Notes under the pieces: generated by a model
Told to the model about the DNA's origin: nothing
Database searches by the model: none
What the model saw: the letters and a program-made list of their open reading frames with translations, nothing else
Shown: piece after piece, positions 14,244 through 24,801 of the stretch
Position numbering within the stretch: position 1 is the stretch's first letter
Layout: each line of letters opens with the position of its first letter
NCBI GenBank assembly: GCA_014695345.1
Contig: JACJOC010000085.1
Coordinates: 1-64,000 of the forward strand
Direction of reading: 5' to 3'
From: Cyanobacteria bacterium FACHB-471
GTDB lineage: Bacteria; Cyanobacteriota; Cyanobacteriia; Elainellales; Elainellaceae
DNA: 64,000 nucleotides
Position numbers and translations under genes: made by a program

Positions 14244-15800
14244 GTGAGCAAAGCAGACGCAAGCAAGACGGGTGAGGGCAAGGCAGACATTTTGGTCGTG
14301 GATGACCATCCAGCCAATCTTCGGCTGCTCTCGGCGATGCTTGAGAAACAGGGATATCAGGTCAGGAAAGCACTCAGCGGACAGCTTGCTCTAGATTCTG
14401 TTGAGGCATCTCTGCCGGATATTGTTTTACTCGATGTCAATATGCCTCAGATGAGCGGTTACGAAGTTTGCGCCAAGCTAAAGGCAGCAGAACGGACTCG
14501 CGACCTACCGGTAATTTTCTTAAGTGCTGCTTCAGAGGCGCTCAATAAAATTTATGCGTTTGAGGTGGGAGGTACAGACTACATCACCAAGCCATTTCAG
14601 TTAGAGGATGTGCTGATTCGGGTAGAGAATCAGTTGACGATTCAGCGACAGAAGAGACAGCTTACCGAGCAAAATACTCGGCTTCAGCAAGAAATTCGCG
14701 ATCGCCAACAGGCAGAAGCCGCCCTGCGACGCAGCGAAGCCCAGAACCAGGCTGTATTGGCAGCCATTCCCGACTTGATGTTTCGCGTTCGTCGAGACGG
14801 GGTTTATCTAGACTATTTCCCGGCTAAAGGGTTCCATGAACCACTATCGCCTGAGATGGAGCGGATTGGGCGAAAAATGATGGATGTGATTCCTACAGAA
14901 ATGGCGCGGCGACAACAGCAGTATATGGAATTGGTGCTACAAACGGGTGAGATTGAGGTGTATGAGCAGCAGTATGAGGTAGATGGCAAACTCTTTGAGG
15001 AAGAGGTGCGCGTTGTTGTCAGCGGTGAAGATGAGGTGTTGTTTATCGTGCGGGATATTGGCGATCGCCGCCGCATTGAGCGAGCGCTTTATGAAGCTCA
15101 ACGCAAATCTGAAACGTTGCTGCTGAACATTTTGCCTAAAATCATCGCGGATCAACTCAAGAAGAATCAAGACTCTGTGAATCAAGAGAATGGGGCGATC
15201 GCAGAACAGTTCAGCGAAGCCACAATTCTGTTTGCTGACATCGTTGACTTTACCTCTCAGGCGGCGCGGACTCGTCCAACGGACCTGGTGAATCTGCTCA
15301 ACCAGATTTTTTCGACCTTTGACCAACTGGTCGAACAGCACGGCTTGGAGAAAATTAAGACAATTGGAGATGCTTACATGGCAGTGGGCGGGCTGCCAAC
15401 TCCCAGAGATGACCATGCTGAGGCGATCGCGGATCTTGCCCTGGACATGCAGCAAGCGATTCAGCGGTTTCATCGAGATCAGGGTGAGCCGTTTCAACTG
15501 CGGATTGGCATCAACACAGGAGCTGTCGTCGCAGGTGTAATCGGCATCAAAAAGTTTAGCTATGACCTCTGGGGAGACACCGTCAACGTCGCTTCTCGGA
15601 TGGAAACCCAGGGTGAAGCCGGAAAAATTCAGGTGACAGCAGAAACCTATCAGCACCTTCAGCACCGCTACCAGTTTGAAAAACGAGGGGCGATCGCCGT
15701 CAAGGGCAAGGGCGAGATGACGACCTACTGGCTTTTAGCCAAAGCTTCTAACGATGAGCCGTCAATAGCAGACGCAGAACTCACTGCACAAATAAATTAG
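14244..15800 (+). CDS. Response regulator with PAS domain and class III adenylate cyclase domain
   Basis: A 518-residue protein. The receiver domain (about 14-130) keeps its DD pair (20-21), phosphoacceptor Asp64 (LLDVNMP) and Lys116 (TKPF). A coiled linker, a PAS-like domain (about 165-275, AVLAAIPDLMFRVRRDG) and the cyclase signalling helix (LLLNILPKIIADQLKK) lead to the catalytic domain (about 325-500). There ATILFADIVDFTS supplies the two metal Asp. KTIGDAYMA and YDLWGDTVNVAS carry the Lys and Asp typical of adenine selection. It should make cAMP under control of phosphorylation. The start is GTG. It ends 9 bp from the convergent hybrid kinase gene, a plausible partner. Confidence 0.92.
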   Translation: MSKADASKTGEGKADILVVDDHPANLRLLSAMLEKQGYQVRKALSGQLALDSVEASLPDIVLLDVNMPQMSGYEVCAKLKAAERTRDLPVIFLSAASEALNKIYAFEVGGTDYITKPFQLEDVLIRVENQLTIQRQKRQLTEQNTRLQQEIRDRQQAEAALRRSEAQNQAVLAAIPDLMFRVRRDGVYLDYFPAKGFHEPLSPEMERIGRKMMDVIPTEMARRQQQYMELVLQTGEIEVYEQQYEVDGKLFEEEVRVVVSGEDEVLFIVRDIGDRRRIERALYEAQRKSETLLLNILPKIIADQLKKNQDSVNQENGAIAEQFSEATILFADIVDFTSQAARTRPTDLVNLLNQIFSTFDQLVEQHGLEKIKTIGDAYMAVGGLPTPRDDHAEAIADLALDMQQAIQRFHRDQGEPFQLRIGINTGAVVAGVIGIKKFSYDLWGDTVNVASRMETQGEAGKIQVTAETYQHLQHRYQFEKRGAIAVKGKGEMTTYWLLAKASNDEPSIADAELTAQIN

Positions 15801-15809
15801 GACGCAGCC

Positions 15810-18800
15810 CTATCGTTTGATCAGAGTTTGATTAATTTGATCGAGCAACTCTTTCATCGAAAGCGAGGGAGGGAGGACTTGAGCGGCGATCGCCTCCAGC
15901 ACTTCGCCTAGCCCCCCCATTTCAAACGGCTGGGGTTGACAGTTCCAAACCAGAATGGGCGGTTTAGTACCGACCTGAGCTAGAGTTTGCAGTGCTTTCA
16001 GCACCGACGGATGCGGTTCAGCATGACGCACGCACAACAGCAGCAGATCAACGCTCTGATGCTGGATTTGCTCTAACACCTCAGACCAGGAACGACTGAT
16101 TGAGCTACGAAAGCCCGCTGCTTGAAAATATTGCATTGAGGCTTGCAGCCATTCTGCCGCGCGCTTAGCATTGGGAGCAGGTGCTGTCCCTTCTACCCAG
16201 TCAGACTGCGGTAATGAAGCCCAATCTTGCTGAAGTGCCGCCACGTCAACGACCAAAACATGTGGTGCCCAGCTCATTCCGGCAGCGACCTGAATCACCT
16301 GAAGCAGTGCTGAGTCGGCATTTGAACTAGCTGCCTCGTCTGGCAAGGGCGAAGCCAAACAAGGAAAAACTGTTAGCTCTGGCAGTTGGTTTGCAGCTTG
16401 CGTAATTTCTGCGGTGAGCGTCACTAGCGGCAGGGCTGCTAAAGCTGGATATTCACTCAACTGCTTGAGGTAGGTCATTGGATCAGAGATGACTCCATCC
16501 AACAACATCACATTAGGCTTCCAAACTTTTGCCAGCAAATCTGCCTGGTCTAAGTCATCTACTTCTAGCATCCGACAGTTGTGAGGATGCAACAGACTAT
16601 TTAAGTGAGTCGCTAGATAATGCTCTGATTGGGCAGATAGCTCCTGTCCGCCTACGTTCAGGTGCAGAATGGTTAGACTGGTGACTGTATCTTGTGGCTC
16701 AGCCGCTTTGTGAATTAGAGGCTCCAGGCTTTGCTCTAACGCATCAGGCTGAATCGGCAAGTTAAGAAATCCATTGGCTCCATTGCGCTGAGCCTGAGCT
16801 TTTTCCAAGTGACTGGCAGTCACAATAACCGGGATGTGGCGAGTTTCGGCATCCGATTTTAGCAGGGTCAGGACATCCCAACCAGTTAGCAGGGGCAAAG
16901 CCGGATTTAGAAAGACCGTCGCAGGCTGGAGCCGTCGCACTTTTTCTAGGGCTTCGGTGCCAGAGCGGGCGATCGCCACCCGATAGCCCAGACCAGCCAA
17001 CTGATGGGTCAAGTCTTCTAAAAAGCGGGGCACTACCTCGACCACCAGCATCAGACGGTTGCTGTAAGTTTGTGCGAGCAGCTTAACCGACGATTGCGTT
17101 TCAGTTGCAGTGGCTTGAGGAGGGCTGGGCGGCAGCAAAATAGTAAATTGGCTCCCCTGCCCCTCAACGGAGGTGAATGTCACATCGCCGCCATGCAGCC
17201 GCGCTAGCCGCTGGGTCAATACGAGTCCCAGTCCGGTTCCTTCATATCGACGAGTCAGCGGGTTTTCAAGCTGCTGAAATTTTTGGAAAATCAGGTGTTG
17301 CTTTTCATCAGGAATGCCAATTCCGGTATCCCAAACGGTGAAGGCAATCCAACCTTCCCAGGCTTCCACGGTTAGCCCCACTTCGCCGCCTACTTCTGTG
17401 AACTTAAACGCATTGGAGAGCAGGTTGGTCAACATTTGCCGTAGCCGTAGCTCATCGGCAATCAAGGTTTTTAAACCGGGCTGCACAGTCAAGTCAAACT
17501 GAATTTCTGATGCTGAAGCGTTAATCTCGGTGCCGAGGCTTTCTTCCTGGGGCTGCAATCGACGGGCTTGCTCATAGGCGCGATCGCATACTGTCCTAAT
17601 ATTAACTAGCTCTAACGTTAGCTCCAGTTGTCCAGTTTCAATTCGAGTTAGATCCAGAATGTCATTAACAATTAGCACCAGATGTCTACCGCTCTGGTGA
17701 ATTAGTTGCGCGTAGCGAGTCTGGCGATTGTTTAGCTCACCCAACGCCTGGTCTTTGAGCAGCGTTGATAGCCCTAAAACTGCAGTCAGCGGAGTCTTTA
17801 GTTCGTGGCTGATGCAGGACAGAAACTCATCCTTGAGGCGATTAAGTTGGACGAGATCTGCATTTTTAGCAGTTAGCTCTTTAGCAACCCGGTGCTGCTC
17901 AGTAGTGTCCTGAGCCATTACCAGCCATAGCTCCTGAGAATGGGCTTGAGAAGGATGATCTGGCTCAGCAGCGAGGTCAGGTATCTCATGGGACTGAAAG
18001 CCAGACTGGGCACGACGGCGAGATTCTACCACCGATAAAAGAGCCGCCATACTGAACTGTGCGTAAGTAGAGCGGTTTCCCAGCGGAATTTTGAGAAACT
18101 GCCAGGTTCGCTCCTGTCCGTCTTTCATGGGACAAGTACAGACACAGGTATCTAAGTCAGCCCCTAAATGGCAAAAGCTGAAGCGATCGCCAATCGCATC
18201 AATCGGATTGGCAACACTCCAAGTCCCGGACAGATGGGACCGCTGGGCTGCGCTGAGGAACCACGGAGGCTCAAAGGAAGATTCGGTAGAGAGAGCAGGT
18301 TGGCTACGCTGTAGCACAGGCGTAGCGACTTCCAGCAGTAAAGCGGCTTCTCGACCTACGCTGCTAGGGTCTTGCAGCTCACCGAGTTGTTCCCGCCAAG
18401 ACAAGTTGCGAGCAACAACCTCGCCAGTGCTGGTTTGTAGCATCATGGGCAAGGGCAGTCGCTCTAGCAAATCAATCAACAGGTCTGCGGAAATTGACTC
18501 AGCAGAAATCGACTCAGCAAAGGTTGGCTCTACTGAGGGCGATTGCCTCGTGTGCTCAAACGCGATCGCCTTTTCACCTAACTGTTCCAGGCTTTTTTGA
18601 ATCTCTGCCATCCCTGACGATCGTTTCTGCAAACTGGGCATGGGGTTTAACACCAGAAACTTGAGCAGTTGCGTTTGGTTTAACAGCCCCAGACAGTCGC
18701 CGGACTCATCAATCAAGGCATATTGCCACTGCTCCAGGTCTTTCAGGTAAGGAGCAAGCTGGCTGATCGGCAAATCTGCAGATAGCTCAATTAGCGGCTC

Positions 18801-19100
18801 ATAGAGCGGCTGATCGACAAGAAAGGATAATTGCTGAAGGGTGTGCTGCCAGGGAGCGATCGCAGTCTCAGAGTAATTACGATCTACGACTTCTGTTGTC
18901 TCTTCAACTTCTGCGGTCTCTTTAGATAGAAAGTCTTTAAGGCAATGAAGGGTCAACGTTCCCACTAACCGCTGTCCATCGGTAACAATAACCCGCTCAC
19001 AGCTAATTTGTTGAAATAACCCTAGCACCGCTGGCAGTCTGGCAGTTTGAGCGCAGACTGGCGTAGGTTGGATAAATTCCCTGACAGAAGCAACATACAT
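15810..19100 (-). CDS. Hybrid sensor histidine kinase: CBS pair, PAS, HisKA, HATPase, pseudoreceiver
   Basis: A 1096-residue multidomain kinase divergent from kaiA. Two CBS-like units (about 1-60 and 95-152) form a Bateman module that may bind an adenine nucleotide. A PAS-like region (about 205-350) carries Cys310, 319, 321 and 323. HisKA has the phospho-His at 432 (SCISHELKTPL). HATPase follows (LLSNAFKFT, WDTGIGIP, EGTGLGL, to about 657). A receiver-like domain (about 683-795) has Asn732 in place of the phosphoacceptor Asp and no Lys in LNLPIQ, so it cannot be phosphorylated normally. A further receiver-like part (about 805-910, NVMLLDG) and a C-terminal region of about 180 residues follow. 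No membrane span is evident. Position and pseudoreceiver recall CikA, but the N-terminus is unlike CikA's. Confidence 0.9.
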   Translation of the reverse strand: MYVASVREFIQPTPVCAQTARLPAVLGLFQQISCERVIVTDGQRLVGTLTLHCLKDFLSKETAEVEETTEVVDRNYSETAIAPWQHTLQQLSFLVDQPLYEPLIELSADLPISQLAPYLKDLEQWQYALIDESGDCLGLLNQTQLLKFLVLNPMPSLQKRSSGMAEIQKSLEQLGEKAIAFEHTRQSPSVEPTFAESISAESISADLLIDLLERLPLPMMLQTSTGEVVARNLSWREQLGELQDPSSVGREAALLLEVATPVLQRSQPALSTESSFEPPWFLSAAQRSHLSGTWSVANPIDAIGDRFSFCHLGADLDTCVCTCPMKDGQERTWQFLKIPLGNRSTYAQFSMAALLSVVESRRRAQSGFQSHEIPDLAAEPDHPSQAHSQELWLVMAQDTTEQHRVAKELTAKNADLVQLNRLKDEFLSCISHELKTPLTAVLGLSTLLKDQALGELNNRQTRYAQLIHQSGRHLVLIVNDILDLTRIETGQLELTLELVNIRTVCDRAYEQARRLQPQEESLGTEINASASEIQFDLTVQPGLKTLIADELRLRQMLTNLLSNAFKFTEVGGEVGLTVEAWEGWIAFTVWDTGIGIPDEKQHLIFQKFQQLENPLTRRYEGTGLGLVLTQRLARLHGGDVTFTSVEGQGSQFTILLPPSPPQATATETQSSVKLLAQTYSNRLMLVVEVVPRFLEDLTHQLAGLGYRVAIARSGTEALEKVRRLQPATVFLNPALPLLTGWDVLTLLKSDAETRHIPVIVTASHLEKAQAQRNGANGFLNLPIQPDALEQSLEPLIHKAAEPQDTVTSLTILHLNVGGQELSAQSEHYLATHLNSLLHPHNCRMLEVDDLDQADLLAKVWKPNVMLLDGVISDPMTYLKQLSEYPALAALPLVTLTAEITQAANQLPELTVFPCLASPLPDEAASSNADSALLQVIQVAAGMSWAPHVLVVDVAALQQDWASLPQSDWVEGTAPAPNAKRAAEWLQASMQYFQAAGFRSSISRSWSEVLEQIQHQSVDLLLLCVRHAEPHPSVLKALQTLAQVGTKPPILVWNCQPQPFEMGGLGEVLEAIAAQVLPPSLSMKELLDQINQTLIKR

Positions 19101-19260
19101 GTATTACGAGAAAGCAGGCCCCAGTGAGAATTTTATCAACAAGCTAGCGATCCTAGCTCAATTATGGCCGCATGACAGAAGAAGTAAAGGCGTTTGCAAT
19201 TACAATAAATGTTAAGTATTTTAATGCTGCTTAGCGATCGCCCAGTTTTCGCTAGGATTC

Positions 19261-19288
19261 TTGACAAGTCTACTCCTCTCACTATCAG
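19261..19288 (+). promoter_or_regulatory. Candidate kaiA promoter
   Basis: TTGACA at 19261-19266 and TATCAG at 19283-19288 are separated by 16 bp, giving a start of transcription about 45 bp before the kaiA start codon. The 239-bp region also has to carry the divergent kinase promoter. It contains a HIP1 octamer at about 19234. Confidence 0.4.
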
Positions 19289-19339
19289 TTCAGCTTTATA
19301 GATCTTCTTGCAGTTATTGTCCTTTTTGTAGTCATAGCT

Positions 19340-20251
19340 TTGCGTCCTCAACTGTTTATCTGTTGCCTGATCTCTTCTGATGCACTAGCGCAATCCCTCA
19401 AGCATTCTCTTCAGCGAGACTCTTTCGAGGGCGCGTTAAGTGGACAGTACAGCCTGACTCAATTTGCGGTTGAGACTGAATTTCTCAGTTTTATTGAGCG
19501 AGAAAAACAGTTGGACTGTTTAATTCTGCAAGATACTGCAAAGCTTTTGGCGACGCTTGGACAGCTCAGAGAACGGGCCATTCTCCTGCCAACGGTGATT
19601 TTAGACTCAGTCACCCCATCGTCTGTTCAAGACTCACCTATCTTGGCAGAAGCTGATCTGTCAGATCCGGATGCTCTCTACCATACGGCTGTCCTGAGAA
19701 CATCAGTTGATCAGCTGCATCAGATCGACCAAACCATTGATCGAGCGATTGATCAATTCTTGACGCTATCGCTTTCTTGCCCGCTCCCTGAGCAGGATTC
19801 AACCCCTGGCTCCCTGGCAGCCCTGACCACCCATACGTCTCTCGTTTCTCAACAAAAACGCCTGTCTGACAAACTGAAAGAACGGTTAGGATACCTCGGT
19901 GTGTACTACAAAAGGAATCCCCAAAACTTTCTCCGACACTTGTCCTCATCTGAGCGAAAAGAGCTAATCCAGCAGCTTAAGGAAGATTACCGGGAAATTG
20001 TCCTGAATTATTTTGCCAGAGAAGACAATCTTAACGAGAGAATTGATAATTTCGTCAACGTGGCTTTTTTCGCTGACATTTCAGTCTCGACCATTGTAGA
20101 AATTCACATGGAATTGATGGACGAATTCTCTAAACAGCTACAGCTAGAAGGACGCAGTGATGATATCTTGCTGGACTATCGGCTGACCCTGATCGATGCG
20201 ATCGCCCATCTCTGTGAAATGTATCGTCGCTCCATTCCGAGAGAGTCTTGA
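19340..20251 (+). CDS. kaiA: Circadian clock protein KaiA
   Basis: A full-length KaiA of 303 residues. KaiA stimulates KaiC autophosphorylation by holding the KaiC A-loop. The N-terminal pseudoreceiver (about 1-135, [15 protein letters not shown]) lacks a phosphorylation site, as in known KaiA, and binds quinones in the characterised protein. The C-terminal four-helix domain (about 180-300) is very conserved: [36 protein letters not shown] and [19 protein letters not shown]. The start codon is TTG at 19340 with no strong ribosome binding site. No better start gives the complete receiver, so low translation is possible. kaiB follows after 82 bp. Confidence 0.97.
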
Positions 20252-20333: not shown

Positions 20334-20651
20334 ATGAGTCCACTCAAAAAGACTTACATTTTGAAGCTTTACGTCGCTGGGAACACCCCCAACTCGATTC
20401 GCGCTTTAAAGACTTTGAACAACATTTTGGAAAAAGAATTTCAGGGTGTGTATGCGCTGAAGGTGATTGACGTTCTCAAAAATCCTCAGCTTGCCGAAGA
20501 AGACAAAATTCTCGCGACCCCAACCCTATCAAAAATCCTGCCTCCGCCCGTGCGAAAGATCATCGGAGACTTATCGGATCGCGAGAAAGTTTTAATCGGA
20601 CTAGACCTTTTGTACGACGAATTGCGAGAAGATGAACGGGAAGAACAGTAG
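20334..20651 (+). CDS. kaiB: Circadian clock protein KaiB
   Basis: A 105-residue thioredoxin-like, fold-switching protein that binds phosphorylated KaiC and sequesters KaiA. It starts [21 protein letters not shown] and contains [22 protein letters not shown] and [20 protein letters not shown], almost identical to characterised KaiB. The frame is open further upstream, but the ATG at 20334 with GGAG before it matches the family start. The acidic end (REDEREEQ) is usual. The kaiA-kaiB gap contains TACAAT near 20283, a possible -10 of a separate kaiBC promoter. Confidence 0.98.
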
Positions 20652-20740: not shown

Positions 20741-22303
20741 ATGAATAAAGCTAATCAAACTGGGCAAGCCATTGAATCGACCTCAGCAGGTATCCAGAAG
20801 ATTCGTACCCTAATTGAAGGCTTTGATGATATCAGTCACGGCGGTCTGCCAGTTGGTAGAACTACTCTAGTCAGCGGCACCTCTGGAACTGGAAAGACCC
20901 TGATTGCCGTCCAATTTCTCTACAACGGCATCACTCACTTTGACGAAGCCGGGGTATTTGTCACGTTTGAAGAATCTCCGGCTGATATCATCAAAAACGC
21001 TCACAGCTTTGGCTGGAATTTGCAGCAGCTAATCGATCAGGGCAAGCTGTTTATCCTGGATGCTTCCCCTGATCCCGAAGGGCAGGACGTAGTCGGCAAC
21101 TTTGACCTGTCTGCGCTGATCGAGCGAATTCAGTACGCGATTCGTAAATACAAAGCCAAACGAGTTTCGATTGACTCCGTTACAGCAGTCTTTCAGCAAT
21201 ACGATGCAGCTTCAGTCGTGCGGCGCGAAATTTTTCGGCTGGTCGCTCGCCTCAAGCAGATGAATGCCACAACGATCATGACCACGGAGCGAGTCGAGGA
21301 ATACGGCCCGGTTGCCCGCTTTGGCGTTGAGGAGTTTGTCTCTGATAACGTGGCGATCGTCCGAAATGTGCTGGAGGGAGAACGCCGTCGCCGCACGATC
21401 GAAATTCTCAAACTGCGCGGCACAACCCACATGAAGGGCGAATATCCCTTCACCATCACCAATGATGGCATCAACATCTTCCCACTCGGAGCCATGCGCT
21501 TAACGCAGCGATCGTCCAACGTCCGCGTTTCCTCTGGAGTAAAGACGCTGGACGAAATGTGTGGTGGCGGCTTTTTCAAAGATTCGATCATCCTGGCAAC
21601 GGGAGCGACAGGTACAGGCAAAACGATGCTGGTCAGCAAGTTTTTGCAGGATGCCTGTAGGATTGGCGAACGCGCTTTGCTGTTTGCCTATGAAGAATCT
21701 CGCGCTCAGCTTTCCCGCAACGCCTATTCCTGGGGGATTGACTTTGAGGAACTGGAGCAAAAGGGCTTGCTGAGAATTCTCTGTGCTTATCCAGAGTCGG
21801 CAGGTTTGGAAGACCATTTGCAGATCATCAAGTCTGAAATTGCCCAGTTTAAGCCATCTCGAATTGCGATCGATTCGCTTTCTGCCCTAGCGCGGGGCGT
21901 GAGTAACAATGCATTTCGTCAGTTTGTTATTGGCGTGACGGGCTTCGCTAAGCAGGAAGAAATTACAGGGTTCTTCACCAACACGACCGATCAATTTATG
22001 GGCTCGAACTCCATTACCGACTCCCATATTTCTACAATCACCGACACAATTTTGATGTTGCAATATGTCGAGATTCGCGGCGAAATGGCACGAGCGCTGA
22101 ACGTCTTTAAGATGCGCGGTTCCTGGCACGACAAGGGCATTCGGGAATACACGATCAGCGCTCAAGGACCACAAATTAAAGAATCTTTCCGCAACTTTGA
22201 AGGAATCATCAGTGGCTCCCCCACTCGCATCGCAGTTGATGAGAAGAATGAGCTTTCGCGGATCGTACGCGGCTTCCAAGAAAAATCTGACGACGATGCC
22301 TAA
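20741..22303 (+). CDS. kaiC: Circadian clock ATPase/autokinase KaiC
   Basis: A 520-residue double RecA-like protein, core of the clock oscillator. The CI domain has Walker A GTSGTGKT (46-53) and catalytic Glu77-Glu78 (FEES). The CII domain has Walker A GATGTGKT and AYEES. The phosphorylation sites Thr426, Ser431 and Thr432 lie in SITDSHISTITD, with numbering identical to the Synechococcus elongatus protein. The C-terminal A-loop region (SGSPTRIAVDEKNELSRIVRGF) that KaiA binds is complete. It lies 89 bp after kaiB in the normal order and is probably co-transcribed with it. Confidence 0.98.
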   Translation: MNKANQTGQAIESTSAGIQKIRTLIEGFDDISHGGLPVGRTTLVSGTSGTGKTLIAVQFLYNGITHFDEAGVFVTFEESPADIIKNAHSFGWNLQQLIDQGKLFILDASPDPEGQDVVGNFDLSALIERIQYAIRKYKAKRVSIDSVTAVFQQYDAASVVRREIFRLVARLKQMNATTIMTTERVEEYGPVARFGVEEFVSDNVAIVRNVLEGERRRRTIEILKLRGTTHMKGEYPFTITNDGINIFPLGAMRLTQRSSNVRVSSGVKTLDEMCGGGFFKDSIILATGATGTGKTMLVSKFLQDACRIGERALLFAYEESRAQLSRNAYSWGIDFEELEQKGLLRILCAYPESAGLEDHLQIIKSEIAQFKPSRIAIDSLSALARGVSNNAFRQFVIGVTGFAKQEEITGFFTNTTDQFMGSNSITDSHISTITDTILMLQYVEIRGEMARALNVFKMRGSWHDKGIREYTISAQGPQIKESFRNFEGIISGSPTRIAVDEKNELSRIVRGFQEKSDDDA

Positions 22304-22568: not shown

Positions 22569-24026
22569 TTAAGGGCTTTCCATGAAGGTTTGAACTCTGC
22601 CGCTGGGGTCGAGAACAATGCGGATTTGAGGGTTACCACCATTCTCAACGGGAGAGACAAAGGGTTCACCGGGAAGGGGCATTCCGGTGCGATCGATGTA
22701 GTCCCCAGCAGCCCGTCCGAGGGGAACAATTCGCTGAATTGTGCCGTCAGCGCCTAATTGCAGTCGATATTCCAGTGTTTGGTCGAGGCTTTCGGGCGGT
22801 TGCCAGCGTTCCTGGAAAAAGGCGCGGGCTTCTGCGACTTGGGGAATGGTGTCAAAGGCAGTGCTGCCTGGGTTGGGGCGATCGCCTCCTCCTTCATCCA
22901 ACGGTGCAGCCTCCGACGAAGCAAATGCGTCCCCTTGCCCTGATGAAGATCGCGCTGCACTCGAAGGCGCATCTGCCGCTTCTGATTCCGTTGGAACTTG
23001 CAATTCAGATGGATTGCTGCCTGTTCCAGGTGCATCCGATCGCTGTTGGGTAGGAGCGATCGCTACATCGGGGAGATTGGTGGGAGCGCTGGGAGCGCTG
23101 GAAGTGTTAGGGACAGGAGCATTCGGCGTAGGGGTACGAGGTACCCCTACTGATGGCAACCCGGTACCTGGTGAAGGGAGAGTATTAGCATTGGGCGGCG
23201 GTAGCGGAATATCGAGCGGTTGAGAGTTGGGAGGGGTTGTGTCTTTACCAGACGGAAGAGGGGTAAGCGCAATGTCTTGTGGATCTTCGCTAAAGGTACC
23301 TTCTGCGGTTTGGATTTCGTTCGTGTCTTCGTTAGCAGCAGTAATCGTAGGCTGTCCAGCGTAAGGATCGACAAAGCGAATGATCGACGCTGTTACCCCA
23401 ACTGCCAACACTAGGACAGCGGCAACCTTTGCCCAGGCAGGCGTAGCGTTAAGCCAGGTGGGACGGTTAAGCGTGGGGAGAGCGATCGCCTCCGCACTGT
23501 ACTCATCCAAGGCATTTGCCAAATCAAATAGCTGCAAAGCGCTCAGCCGCACTACATTTGACTCACCTGTGGACAATTCACCCAAGCAAAGGTCGTGGGA
23601 CAGCAAGCCCTTTGGCTTGAGATAAATCTCAGTTGCGCTCCCAGTTGCACCAGTACCATTACCCTCCTCGGGTTGCATTACTGCTGTACCGTTTCCTACC
23701 CTACTAGAAGCAGCACCCGGCAAAGACTCTAGCTGGTCAAAGGATGCCAACAGGGGAGGAGATTGCCCTAGCGTAGGAGCGGTACCTAAAACATTTTGCA
23801 CATAGCGCTCGACTGCTTCACATAGCGCCTCTAACTGAGCGCGATCGCCTGTAATCTGTACCTGCTCTTCTGGCGGTAAGCGTGGGTCATCAAAGCTAAG
23901 CTGAAACCGCAACTGCTTCAACACAGGGCGACCTGCCCAGCGAGACAGAGGCGACCCTTTTGCCGCAATTTCCAGTGTGCAGGTAGGGGGAGTATATCGA
24001 CGCAAAACGGAGTTGGGCAAAGACAT
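22569..24026 (-). CDS. DUF4335 domain protein
   Basis: A 485-residue cyanobacterial protein of unknown function. The DUF4335 domain is at the N-terminus (about 1-190), starting NSVLRRYTPPTCTLEIAAKGSPLSRW. A single membrane span lies at about 197-217 (WAKVAAVLVLAVGVTASII). A long Pro/Ser/Ala-rich linker (about 225-390) leads to a C-terminal domain with ERWQPPESLDQTLEYRLQL and GNPQIRIVLDPSGRVQTF. The ATG at 24026 is preferred; an upstream start at 24125 adds 33 unrelated residues. It lies downstream of a DUF3038 gene, the usual partner in cyanobacteria, so the two products probably act together. Confidence 0.88.
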   Translation of the reverse strand: MSLPNSVLRRYTPPTCTLEIAAKGSPLSRWAGRPVLKQLRFQLSFDDPRLPPEEQVQITGDRAQLEALCEAVERYVQNVLGTAPTLGQSPPLLASFDQLESLPGAASSRVGNGTAVMQPEEGNGTGATGSATEIYLKPKGLLSHDLCLGELSTGESNVVRLSALQLFDLANALDEYSAEAIALPTLNRPTWLNATPAWAKVAAVLVLAVGVTASIIRFVDPYAGQPTITAANEDTNEIQTAEGTFSEDPQDIALTPLPSGKDTTPPNSQPLDIPLPPPNANTLPSPGTGLPSVGVPRTPTPNAPVPNTSSAPSAPTNLPDVAIAPTQQRSDAPGTGSNPSELQVPTESEAADAPSSAARSSSGQGDAFASSEAAPLDEGGGDRPNPGSTAFDTIPQVAEARAFFQERWQPPESLDQTLEYRLQLGADGTIQRIVPLGRAAGDYIDRTGMPLPGEPFVSPVENGGNPQIRIVLDPSGRVQTFMESP

Positions 24027-24183
24027 GGTTAAGGAAGAGAGGTTTGGCTTTCTTCTAAAGACACACGGATAGATCCACAGGTGAACAGAAGCAAGCTGTT
24101 TTGTGGAAGCAAGGATACGACTCAATCACCGAAATTATAAGGATACTGCTGAGATAAAGCTTCGTCTCTGCGGTATATAAAGC

Positions 24184-24801
24184 TCATAGCTCTGGCTTTG
24201 AAGGATGAACTGGCGCGACACCAGTGCGATCGAGCAGTGCCATCCAAAGCCGCCGAGAGCCATTAGGAGCGCTATAAAACAACAGATCAATCAGCAGTTT
24301 CAGCGCCAGGTGAGTCAACTGGTCGGGCGGTGTGTTTTCGCCGTCTTCCATCCGTTCCTGGTAGGCATTGCTGAAATTATCGAGGTAATCCCCCAATAGC
24401 GCAGCCTGGTGAGGTTCACGGTTTTGTTCAGCAAGTTGTTCTAATAGCCCCACTGCACGGCGAATTAGCTCTTGATGCTGGTTTGCCAGACGACAGGCAA
24501 TCAAGACAAGCGATCGCGCCTCCTCTACATCCAACCGCTTACGTCCCTGCCCCTTTCGCAAAGGGCTAGACTGCCTCAACCGCCACAGCGAAACGCGATC
24601 TGCCACGACATCTGCCAGGTTTAGCTCTGCCGCCGTTCGCAACATTGCTTCAGAGCCAATTCCAGCTAACGCCTCCAGCGCCAGCAACACCAAATCCAGT
24701 TGGGCTTTGATGTTGTCCAACTGAGTCGGGTCTGGCTGAATGCCTGAAGTTAGCTCCTCCCAGGCAGCATTTGAATTGGGTGACTTAACGGTAGAAGGCA
24801 T
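24184..24801 (-). CDS. DUF3038 domain protein
   Basis: A 205-residue mostly helical soluble protein. Recognisable DUF3038 pieces are LDNIKAQLDLVLLALEALAGIGSEAML, then RVSLWRLRQSSPLRKG and LTHLALKLLIDLLFYSA. No catalytic motif is visible. Its gene lies 157 bp upstream of the DUF4335 gene on the same strand, and that pairing is conserved in cyanobacteria. Function is unknown. Confidence 0.87.
   Translation of the reverse strand: MPSTVKSPNSNAAWEELTSGIQPDPTQLDNIKAQLDLVLLALEALAGIGSEAMLRTAAELNLADVVADRVSLWRLRQSSPLRKGQGRKRLDVEEARSLVLIACRLANQHQELIRRAVGLLEQLAEQNREPHQAALLGDYLDNFSNAYQERMEDGENTPPDQLTHLALKLLIDLLFYSAPNGSRRLWMALLDRTGVAPVHPSKPEL

Follow-up and report, generated by a model that had tools for sequence, protein, structure and literature searches.

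Results and Discussion

A three-receiver histidine kinase is encoded beside kaiABC

The DNA analysed here, hereafter the window, comprises 64,000 nucleotides of Cyanobacteria bacterium FACHB-471 (contig JACJOC010000085.1 of assembly GCA_014695345.1, positions 1 to 64,000 of the forward strand). It carries the clock genes kaiA, kaiB and kaiC, as confirmed by Pfam, and beside them on the opposite strand a gene for a histidine kinase with three receiver folds (Table 1). This kinase gene lies head-to-head with kaiABC in many lineages, and in the window its kinase core motifs are intact. Taken together, the data presented below describe a real, strongly conserved and apparently undescribed kai-linked regulator.

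Table 1. Positions of the kinase gene, its domains and the adjoining kai genes within the window
Feature	Position	Strand	Basis or remark
Whole kinase gene, CBS-CBS-PAS-DHp-HATPase-three receiver folds	15810..19100	-	1096 aa, ATG start
CBS pair, residues 5-153	18642..19088	-	Model, and Pfam in homologues; nucleotide motif unconserved
PAS fold with long insert, residues 203-398	17907..18494	-	Model and weak Pfam
Cysteine motif, residues 310-323 (C310, C319, C321, C323)	18132..18173	-	
DHp (HisKA), residues 400-489	17634..17903	-	Pfam and model
Phospho-acceptor His432	17805..17807	-	Alignment of 160 homologues
HATPase_c (CA), residues 497-657	17130..17612	-	Motifs intact in window protein
Pseudoreceiver 1, residues 683-797, Asn732 at phosphoacceptor site	16710..17054	-	Pfam and model
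Receiver fold 2, residues 809-939, family hallmark	16284..16676	-	Model; without Pfam match here
Receiver fold 3, residues 947-1095	15816..16262	-	Present in long members
Divergent intergenic region, kinase gene/kaiA, 239 bp	19101..19339		
kaiA	19340..20251	+	Pfam
kaiB	20340..20651	+	Pfam
kaiC	20741..22303	+	Pfam

The sequence-only reading of this locus had described a kinase divergent from kaiABC, with two CBS-like units, a PAS-like region, an intact kinase core and a single receiver bearing Asn732 and no conserved Lys. These observations were upheld. Pfam matched HisKA at residues 423-490 (E = 1.1e-17), HATPase_c at 549-658 (8.1e-29) and Response_reg at 685-792 (1.9e-13). The CBS match at residues 7-57 fell below the cut-off (18.2 of 24 bits), and Pfam CBS was matched at E ≤0.1 in 25 of 36 aligned homologues, the best at 2.7e-9; the paired CBS fold of a Bateman module was likewise present in an AlphaFold model of the window protein. 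The same model gave a PAS topology with disordered inserts to residues 203-398, and weak Pfam PAS matches were found in 3-4 of the 36 homologues. The receiver count had to be revised. Three complete (beta-alpha)5 receiver folds follow the ATPase domain in the model (residues 683-797, 809-939 and 947-1095), of which Pfam finds the first alone and has no match to the second or third. Moreover, it is the second, which had gone unnoticed, that is the pseudoreceiver kept across lineages. The model was built from 36 sequences with a mean predicted local distance difference test score (pLDDT) of 74 and a predicted template modelling score (pTM) of 0.47, and because of these scores its arrangement of domains relative to each other is unreliable. 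No NCBIfam model scored above its cut-off among the 25 listed of 103 matches, the best being HrmK with 284 of 725 bits.

Linkage to kaiABC spans many lineages

The expectation that the same kinase would be found next to kaiA elsewhere was borne out. We searched 291 genomes of the class with residues 680-1096 of the kinase and with Pfam KaiA; 260 were KaiA-positive. Where both matches were listed (93 genomes), the kinase lay ≤6 kb from kaiA in 85, and all 85 pairs were divergent. After further regions had been fetched, 202 of the 291 genomes could be resolved (the other 89 stand outside the count), and a kinase homologue was divergent from kaiA in 156 of them. The 46 unlinked genomes comprise 35 without a kinase beside kaiA, 6 in which the kinase gene and kaiA are on different contigs, 2 in which they are far apart on one contig and 3 without kaiA in the stretch. 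Linkage holds in 134/145 genomes with a strong C-terminal hit (matches listed down to E = 8e-25), and each of the 22 linked genomes without such a hit has a match to receiver 2 at E ≤1e-8. By hand count, the linked genomes span 22 of the 39 sampled family codes.

In a second set, whose genomes are partly shared with the first, the kinase was linked at 67 of 80 named kaiA loci. These were the 80 best of 371 loci in a scan that took a Pseudanabaena-like KaiA as its anchor; the set is unbalanced, since 19 of the 80 are Pseudanabaena-like. Of the 13 unlinked loci, a contig edge truncates 5, and the other 8, including that of Crocosphaera watsonii WH 8501, have no such kinase in the stretch. As a control we asked how widely other neighbours are shared: the widest gene family that is neither kai nor kinase occurred at 18/80 loci, 17 of them Pseudanabaena-like. 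The control excluded two kinase hits, each shared by 66 other loci and one of them a fragment of the kinase family itself, and two families at 29 and 19 other loci whose named ORFs (open reading frames) lie opposite kaiC, with one ORF checked for each; KaiB is under-counted in it because ORFs <120 aa were dropped. The gap between the kinase and kaiA frames has a median of 245 bp in the 67 named loci. Furthermore, pairwise distances of the kinase and of KaiA were correlated over 128 loci (Spearman 0.41), a value that none of 500 permutations reached.

The second receiver serves as a marker of the family. Its profile matched 196/291 genomes at E ≤1e-3, mostly once per genome, and the listed matches, when compared by eye, fell inside the kai-linked ORF, though not everywhere: in G120 and G133, for example, they lie away from kaiA. 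At E ≤1e-8 it was found in 178/260 KaiA-positive and 3/31 KaiA-negative genomes (a hand count that ignores kinship), and the latter three are incomplete assemblies (69-87%).

We found no description of this gene family in the main text of the articles searched, which came mostly from outside the subscription journals. Term look-ups in the available text of PMC12691664, PMC12084410 and PMC12282138 returned no description of a kai-linked kinase family, and those in a clock-gene co-occurrence study (PMC5520375) and a paper on kaiA evolution (PMC8113500) returned no such kai neighbour. The kinase neighbour is also unmentioned in the available portion of a 2024 synteny analysis of kai clusters (PMC11372060).

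The histidine box outlives the ATP site

Conservation was scored over 160 non-redundant homologues, 81 of them long (>950 aa) and 79 shorter. The position of His432 is His in 160/160. The N-box Asn of the ATP site is lost in 30/160 members, those 30 being 630-883 aa long. In an independent hidden Markov model alignment of these 30, the Asn was gone in all, the ATP-binding Asp was kept in 3 and the His in all 30. Pfam, run on eight proteins of which seven have lost the ATP site, recovered HisKA in 8/8 and HATPase_c above the cut-off in 2/7. On a KaiC tree of 144 loci, 28 of them with the site lost, the loss state needs at least four changes. Examples with a decayed ATPase domain and an intact HisKA, all kai-linked, are L073:4693-6834, L155:1492-3633 and L109:3618-5558; such kai-linked homologues are predicted to be natural pseudokinases with an invariant His.

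Similarity to the window protein in ATP-site-lost members versus the others is 0.42 versus 0.47 for receiver 2, 0.27 versus 0.58 for receiver 1 and 0.42 versus 0.76 for DHp. Since the His box and receiver 2 both persist in the members without an ATP site, we regard these two as the core of the family. In HisKA kinases the residue at position +4 from the His serves phosphatase activity, and a Glu or Asp at +1 serves kinase and transfer chemistry. The ATP-site-lost members have Thr (16), Asn (11) or Ser (3) at +4, that is Thr or Asn in 27/30, and Glu (19), Ala (10) or Ser (1) at +1, a pattern that would be compatible with a phosphatase or phosphotransfer role.

None of the three receivers has a complete phosphorylation pocket

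The loss of the phosphoacceptor and Lys in receiver 1, as the sequence-only reading had it, proved to be widespread among the long homologues. Of these 81, 79 have Asn at position 732, one has Ser and one has Asp, and the Lys position (781) is Leu in 74/81. In the shorter members position 732 is Ser (26), Asn (23), Arg (9), His (9), a gap (7), Asp (4) or Gln (1). E688 alone is left of the acidic pair. Receiver 1 is thus a fixed pseudoreceiver, inert in nearly all long homologues.

In receiver 2 the likely phosphoacceptor place is occupied by an Asp (868) in 81% of long members and, by eye, there is no acidic pair. Its kinship with receivers is backed by profile matches to KdpE and PhoB (E = 0.002-0.004), and Pfam Response_reg was matched in 2/24 members. 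Receiver 3 keeps Asp952 of the acidic pair (90% of long members) and has Cys1023 at the phospho-Asp place, again by eye; its relationship to TorR is weaker (E = 0.04), with Response_reg matched in 6/26 (best 0.00057). Both folds therefore miss parts of the phosphorylation pocket, and while the HisKA and HATPase catalytic motifs of a phosphorelay are present in the window protein, a receiver with Asp, acidic pair and Lys is not.

Within the protein, conservation is highest in the DHp domain and on one face of receiver 1. Scored in long members as one minus entropy (base 20), conservation of receiver 1 is 0.92 in alpha2, 0.90 in the beta3-alpha3 loop and 0.96 in alpha3, as against 0.58 in alpha1, 0.54 in alpha4 and 0.43 in alpha5. 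The pseudoreceiver of CikA binds KaiB via alpha1-beta2-alpha2, and KaiA binds quinones near beta3-alpha3, according to the portion of PMC12632262 available to us. The conserved face may partly overlap these binding regions, which is suggestive only.

Input domains

The sequence-only reading had proposed that the CBS module reads the adenylate state. CBS domains that bind adenosine nucleotides carry the ribose motif G-x-x-S/T-x-x-D. Glycines G47 and G138 are kept in 79/81 long homologues, and the S/T and Asp positions are unconserved at both sites in these 81, so that adenylate reading is unsupported and was rejected. Nucleotide binding in another mode could still occur.

The PAS segment contains a C-x-C motif in 70/81 long members and 8/79 shorter ones, and in 69 of the long members another Cys precedes it by 8-10 residues (longest match taken). 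Two further positions, C429 (three residues before His432) and C505, are Cys in 81/81 long members. Redox or metal sensing is a reasonable idea that these residues suggest.

Relation to known clock kinases

The protein resembles CikA in that a histidine kinase core is followed by a non-phosphorylatable receiver in a clock context. However, CikA has a GAF-type N-terminus, which the window kinase lacks, and one pseudoreceiver, and in the source genome it is encoded on another contig than kai, whereas the window protein has a CBS pair, a Cys-bearing PAS and three receiver folds and lies beside kaiA. The source genome has its own CikA (L292; 57% identity over 367 residues to the CikA of a Synechococcus elongatus-like genome). 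The window kinase is 35.5% identical to it over kinase and receiver, and ranks only seventh among the matches to CikA within the genome. In a kinase tree, in which long branches occur, the family formed one group with a Shimodaira-Hasegawa-like approximate likelihood ratio test (SH-aLRT) value of 99; CikA fell outside, itself supported at 99. An approximately unbiased (AU) test failed to reject a clade of the family plus CikA (p = 0.61). A special relation of the pseudoreceiver to that of CikA was unsupported, and a special CikA-type receiver was rejected, as an ordinary receiver matches receiver 1 slightly better in what is a weak test (given below). The idea that the family and CikA are orthologues or close paralogues that differ by a sensor swap is very improbable: the identity and the AU test leave some room for it, but the separate CikA, the low rank of the match and the two well-supported groups stand against it, and orthology is already largely refuted.

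SasA is likewise a clock-linked HisKA kinase, but one without receivers and with a KaiB-like domain at its N-terminus. A SasA-like gene (L272) lies on contig 63 of the source genome, and PF07689, which represents the KaiB-like domain, misses the window kinase in that genome, its matches being KaiB, the SasA-like ORF and one other place. Orthology with either CikA or SasA was rejected, since both are present elsewhere in the source genome. The third PF07689 place (G000:C73:301766-302008, L274) is the end of a 260-aa ORF distinct from both the KaiB of the kai cluster and the SasA-like gene.

KaiA itself, the product of the neighbouring gene, has an N-terminal pseudoreceiver, also an inert receiver fold, with weak profile similarity to receiver 3. 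The profile probability between receiver 3 and KaiA residues 1-140 was 82, against ≤2.8 in 60 column-shuffled controls. Common descent of the two stays a lead, because KaiA was absent from the PDB profile search results with receiver 3 and Pfam KaiA_N matched 1/26 receiver-3 sequences (E = 0.023).

Flanking genes

On the far side of the kinase gene, convergent with it and with 9 bp between the ORFs, lies a receiver-PAS-nucleotide cyclase gene (14244-15800, + strand) whose receiver has the usual acidic pair, Asp and Lys, by eye. As a conserved partner it was rejected: such a neighbour occurs at 3 of 30 loci (L002-L031, 1.5 kb flanks), all of this genus. Downstream of kaiC, on the opposite strand, are genes for DUF4335 and DUF3038 proteins (22569-24801, - strand).

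A proposed clock-linked, pseudoreceiver-gated regulator

The idea of a clock-coupled kinase, already raised from the sequence, remains the best reading, because linkage to kai is conserved and the pseudoreceiver is inert. We place at about even the chance that the window protein belongs to a cyanobacterial family of clock-linked two-component regulators, perhaps phosphatase-like and gated by pseudoreceivers. In such a mechanism the window protein would not run an ordinary phosphorelay. Its pseudoreceivers would dock proteins or ligands and so restrain the DHp/kinase core, like those of CikA and ShkA, and the core would add phosphate to, or remove it from, a separate response regulator, for which a clock output regulator such as RpaA is the most plausible candidate. 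Phosphate removal might be the conserved activity, a weaker suggestion that comes from the lineages without an ATP site: these retain receiver 2 as well as the His box, whose +4 residue is Thr or Asn in most of them. The input side would consist of the CBS pair and the Cys-bearing PAS, perhaps reporting redox or metal state.

A bolder version, which we offer tentatively and rate as falling short of even, is that this is a third, previously unrecognised family of clock kinases/phosphatases. It would be an old partner of kaiABC that is absent from the S. elongatus-type model; the three-receiver module would read the Kai complex or compete with KaiA, and the DHp, sometimes without an ATP site, would be a clock-gated phosphatase or phosphotransfer switch on an output regulator.

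Several observations weigh against a clock-coupled role. Of the 57 KaiA-positive genomes without a strong hit, 35 have no such kinase beside kaiA, although 3 of these have <1.5 kb of sequence upstream of kaiA and one, G214, has an N-terminal kinase piece at the contig end. The kinase gene lies away from kaiA in 4 genomes (G002, G008, G027 and G192). The receiver-2 marker is missing in G011 and G031, both S. elongatus-like, so the kinase is dispensable to a Kai clock. (The CikA receiver of G011 matches PDB 2j48, which we take to be S. elongatus CikA, at E = 3.6e-58, and G031 has the same family and genus code.) Receiver 1 gave a profile probability of 97.5 to the CikA pseudoreceiver versus 98.1 to an ordinary receiver, a weak test with two CikA sequences and one ordinary one. 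Asp868 is at the likely phosphoacceptor place of receiver 2, and phosphorylation is therefore possible there. Ordinary kinases also have Thr or Asn at +4, and retention of these residues is thus no proof of phosphatase activity. Lastly, the putative tie to the Kai proteins or RpaA is drawn from gene position and co-occurrence only.

The two kinase-less S. elongatus-like genomes each contain a stand-alone receiver ORF of about 130 aa some 1 kb upstream of kaiA on the same strand (L099:5583-5966 and L108:5582-5971).

One alternative is that the two genes are held together by a shared divergent regulatory region, the kinase controlling kai expression alone or an unrelated pathway. The invariably divergent orientation of the near pairs and the short gap, 239 bp in the window and close to the median, favour this. 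Anabaena kaiA is alr2884, as stated in the available part of PMC8064755, and all2883, presumably the Anabaena orthologue of the window kinase by locus-tag order, is tabulated among genes predicted to have CRP sites, the sole mention of it that we found (PMC2633013, available in part). A promoter and terminator scan of the 239-bp region yielded one promoter-like site, at chance level (0.7 expected), and no terminators, and so weighs neither way. However, the co-occurrence of receiver 2 with KaiA extends to some genomes in which the two genes are separated, and conservation peaks in the DHp domain and on one face of receiver 1. We consider this explanation unlikely, if deserving of attention.

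Alternatively, the protein could be an autoinhibited kinase like ShkA, the Caulobacter hybrid kinase (PDB 6qrj), in which the pseudoreceivers fold back on DHp, a small ligand or redox change releases them and the target is not clock output. In both proteins a kinase core precedes a pseudoreceiver, one that can regulate it in ShkA and may do so here. Full-length ShkA was the second structural match to the whole model in Foldseek, in a list that kinase cores dominate; the cysteine motif together with C429 and C505 would suit a redox or metal input, and a nucleotide-cyclase gene adjoins the kinase gene in this genus. The available text of PMC12632262 reports that the CikA and ShkA pseudoreceivers inhibit autophosphorylation, and that ShkA keeps a working receiver. 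In contrast, receiver 1 is inert here and receivers 2 and 3 look incomplete. Release by cyclic di-GMP is a further trait of ShkA. Moreover, the cyclase neighbour is confined, among the 30 loci, to the three of this genus, and an autoinhibited kinase of this kind would by itself leave the kai linkage unexplained, which makes this explanation quite improbable as it stands.

Returning to the clock-linked regulator, most knowledge of the cyanobacterial clock comes from S. elongatus, and neither of the two S. elongatus-like genomes in our sample carries the kinase gene. The kinase is common beside the kai genes and absent from these relatives of the main laboratory model; it is thus possibly an overlooked part of the clock. 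Its presence beside kaiABC in more than half of the sampled family codes suggests that part of the input or output wiring of the clock may be invisible in that model. The lineages that have lost the ATP site and kept the His box and receiver 2 hint at what the family needs in order to function, and therefore make the proposed mechanism directly testable.

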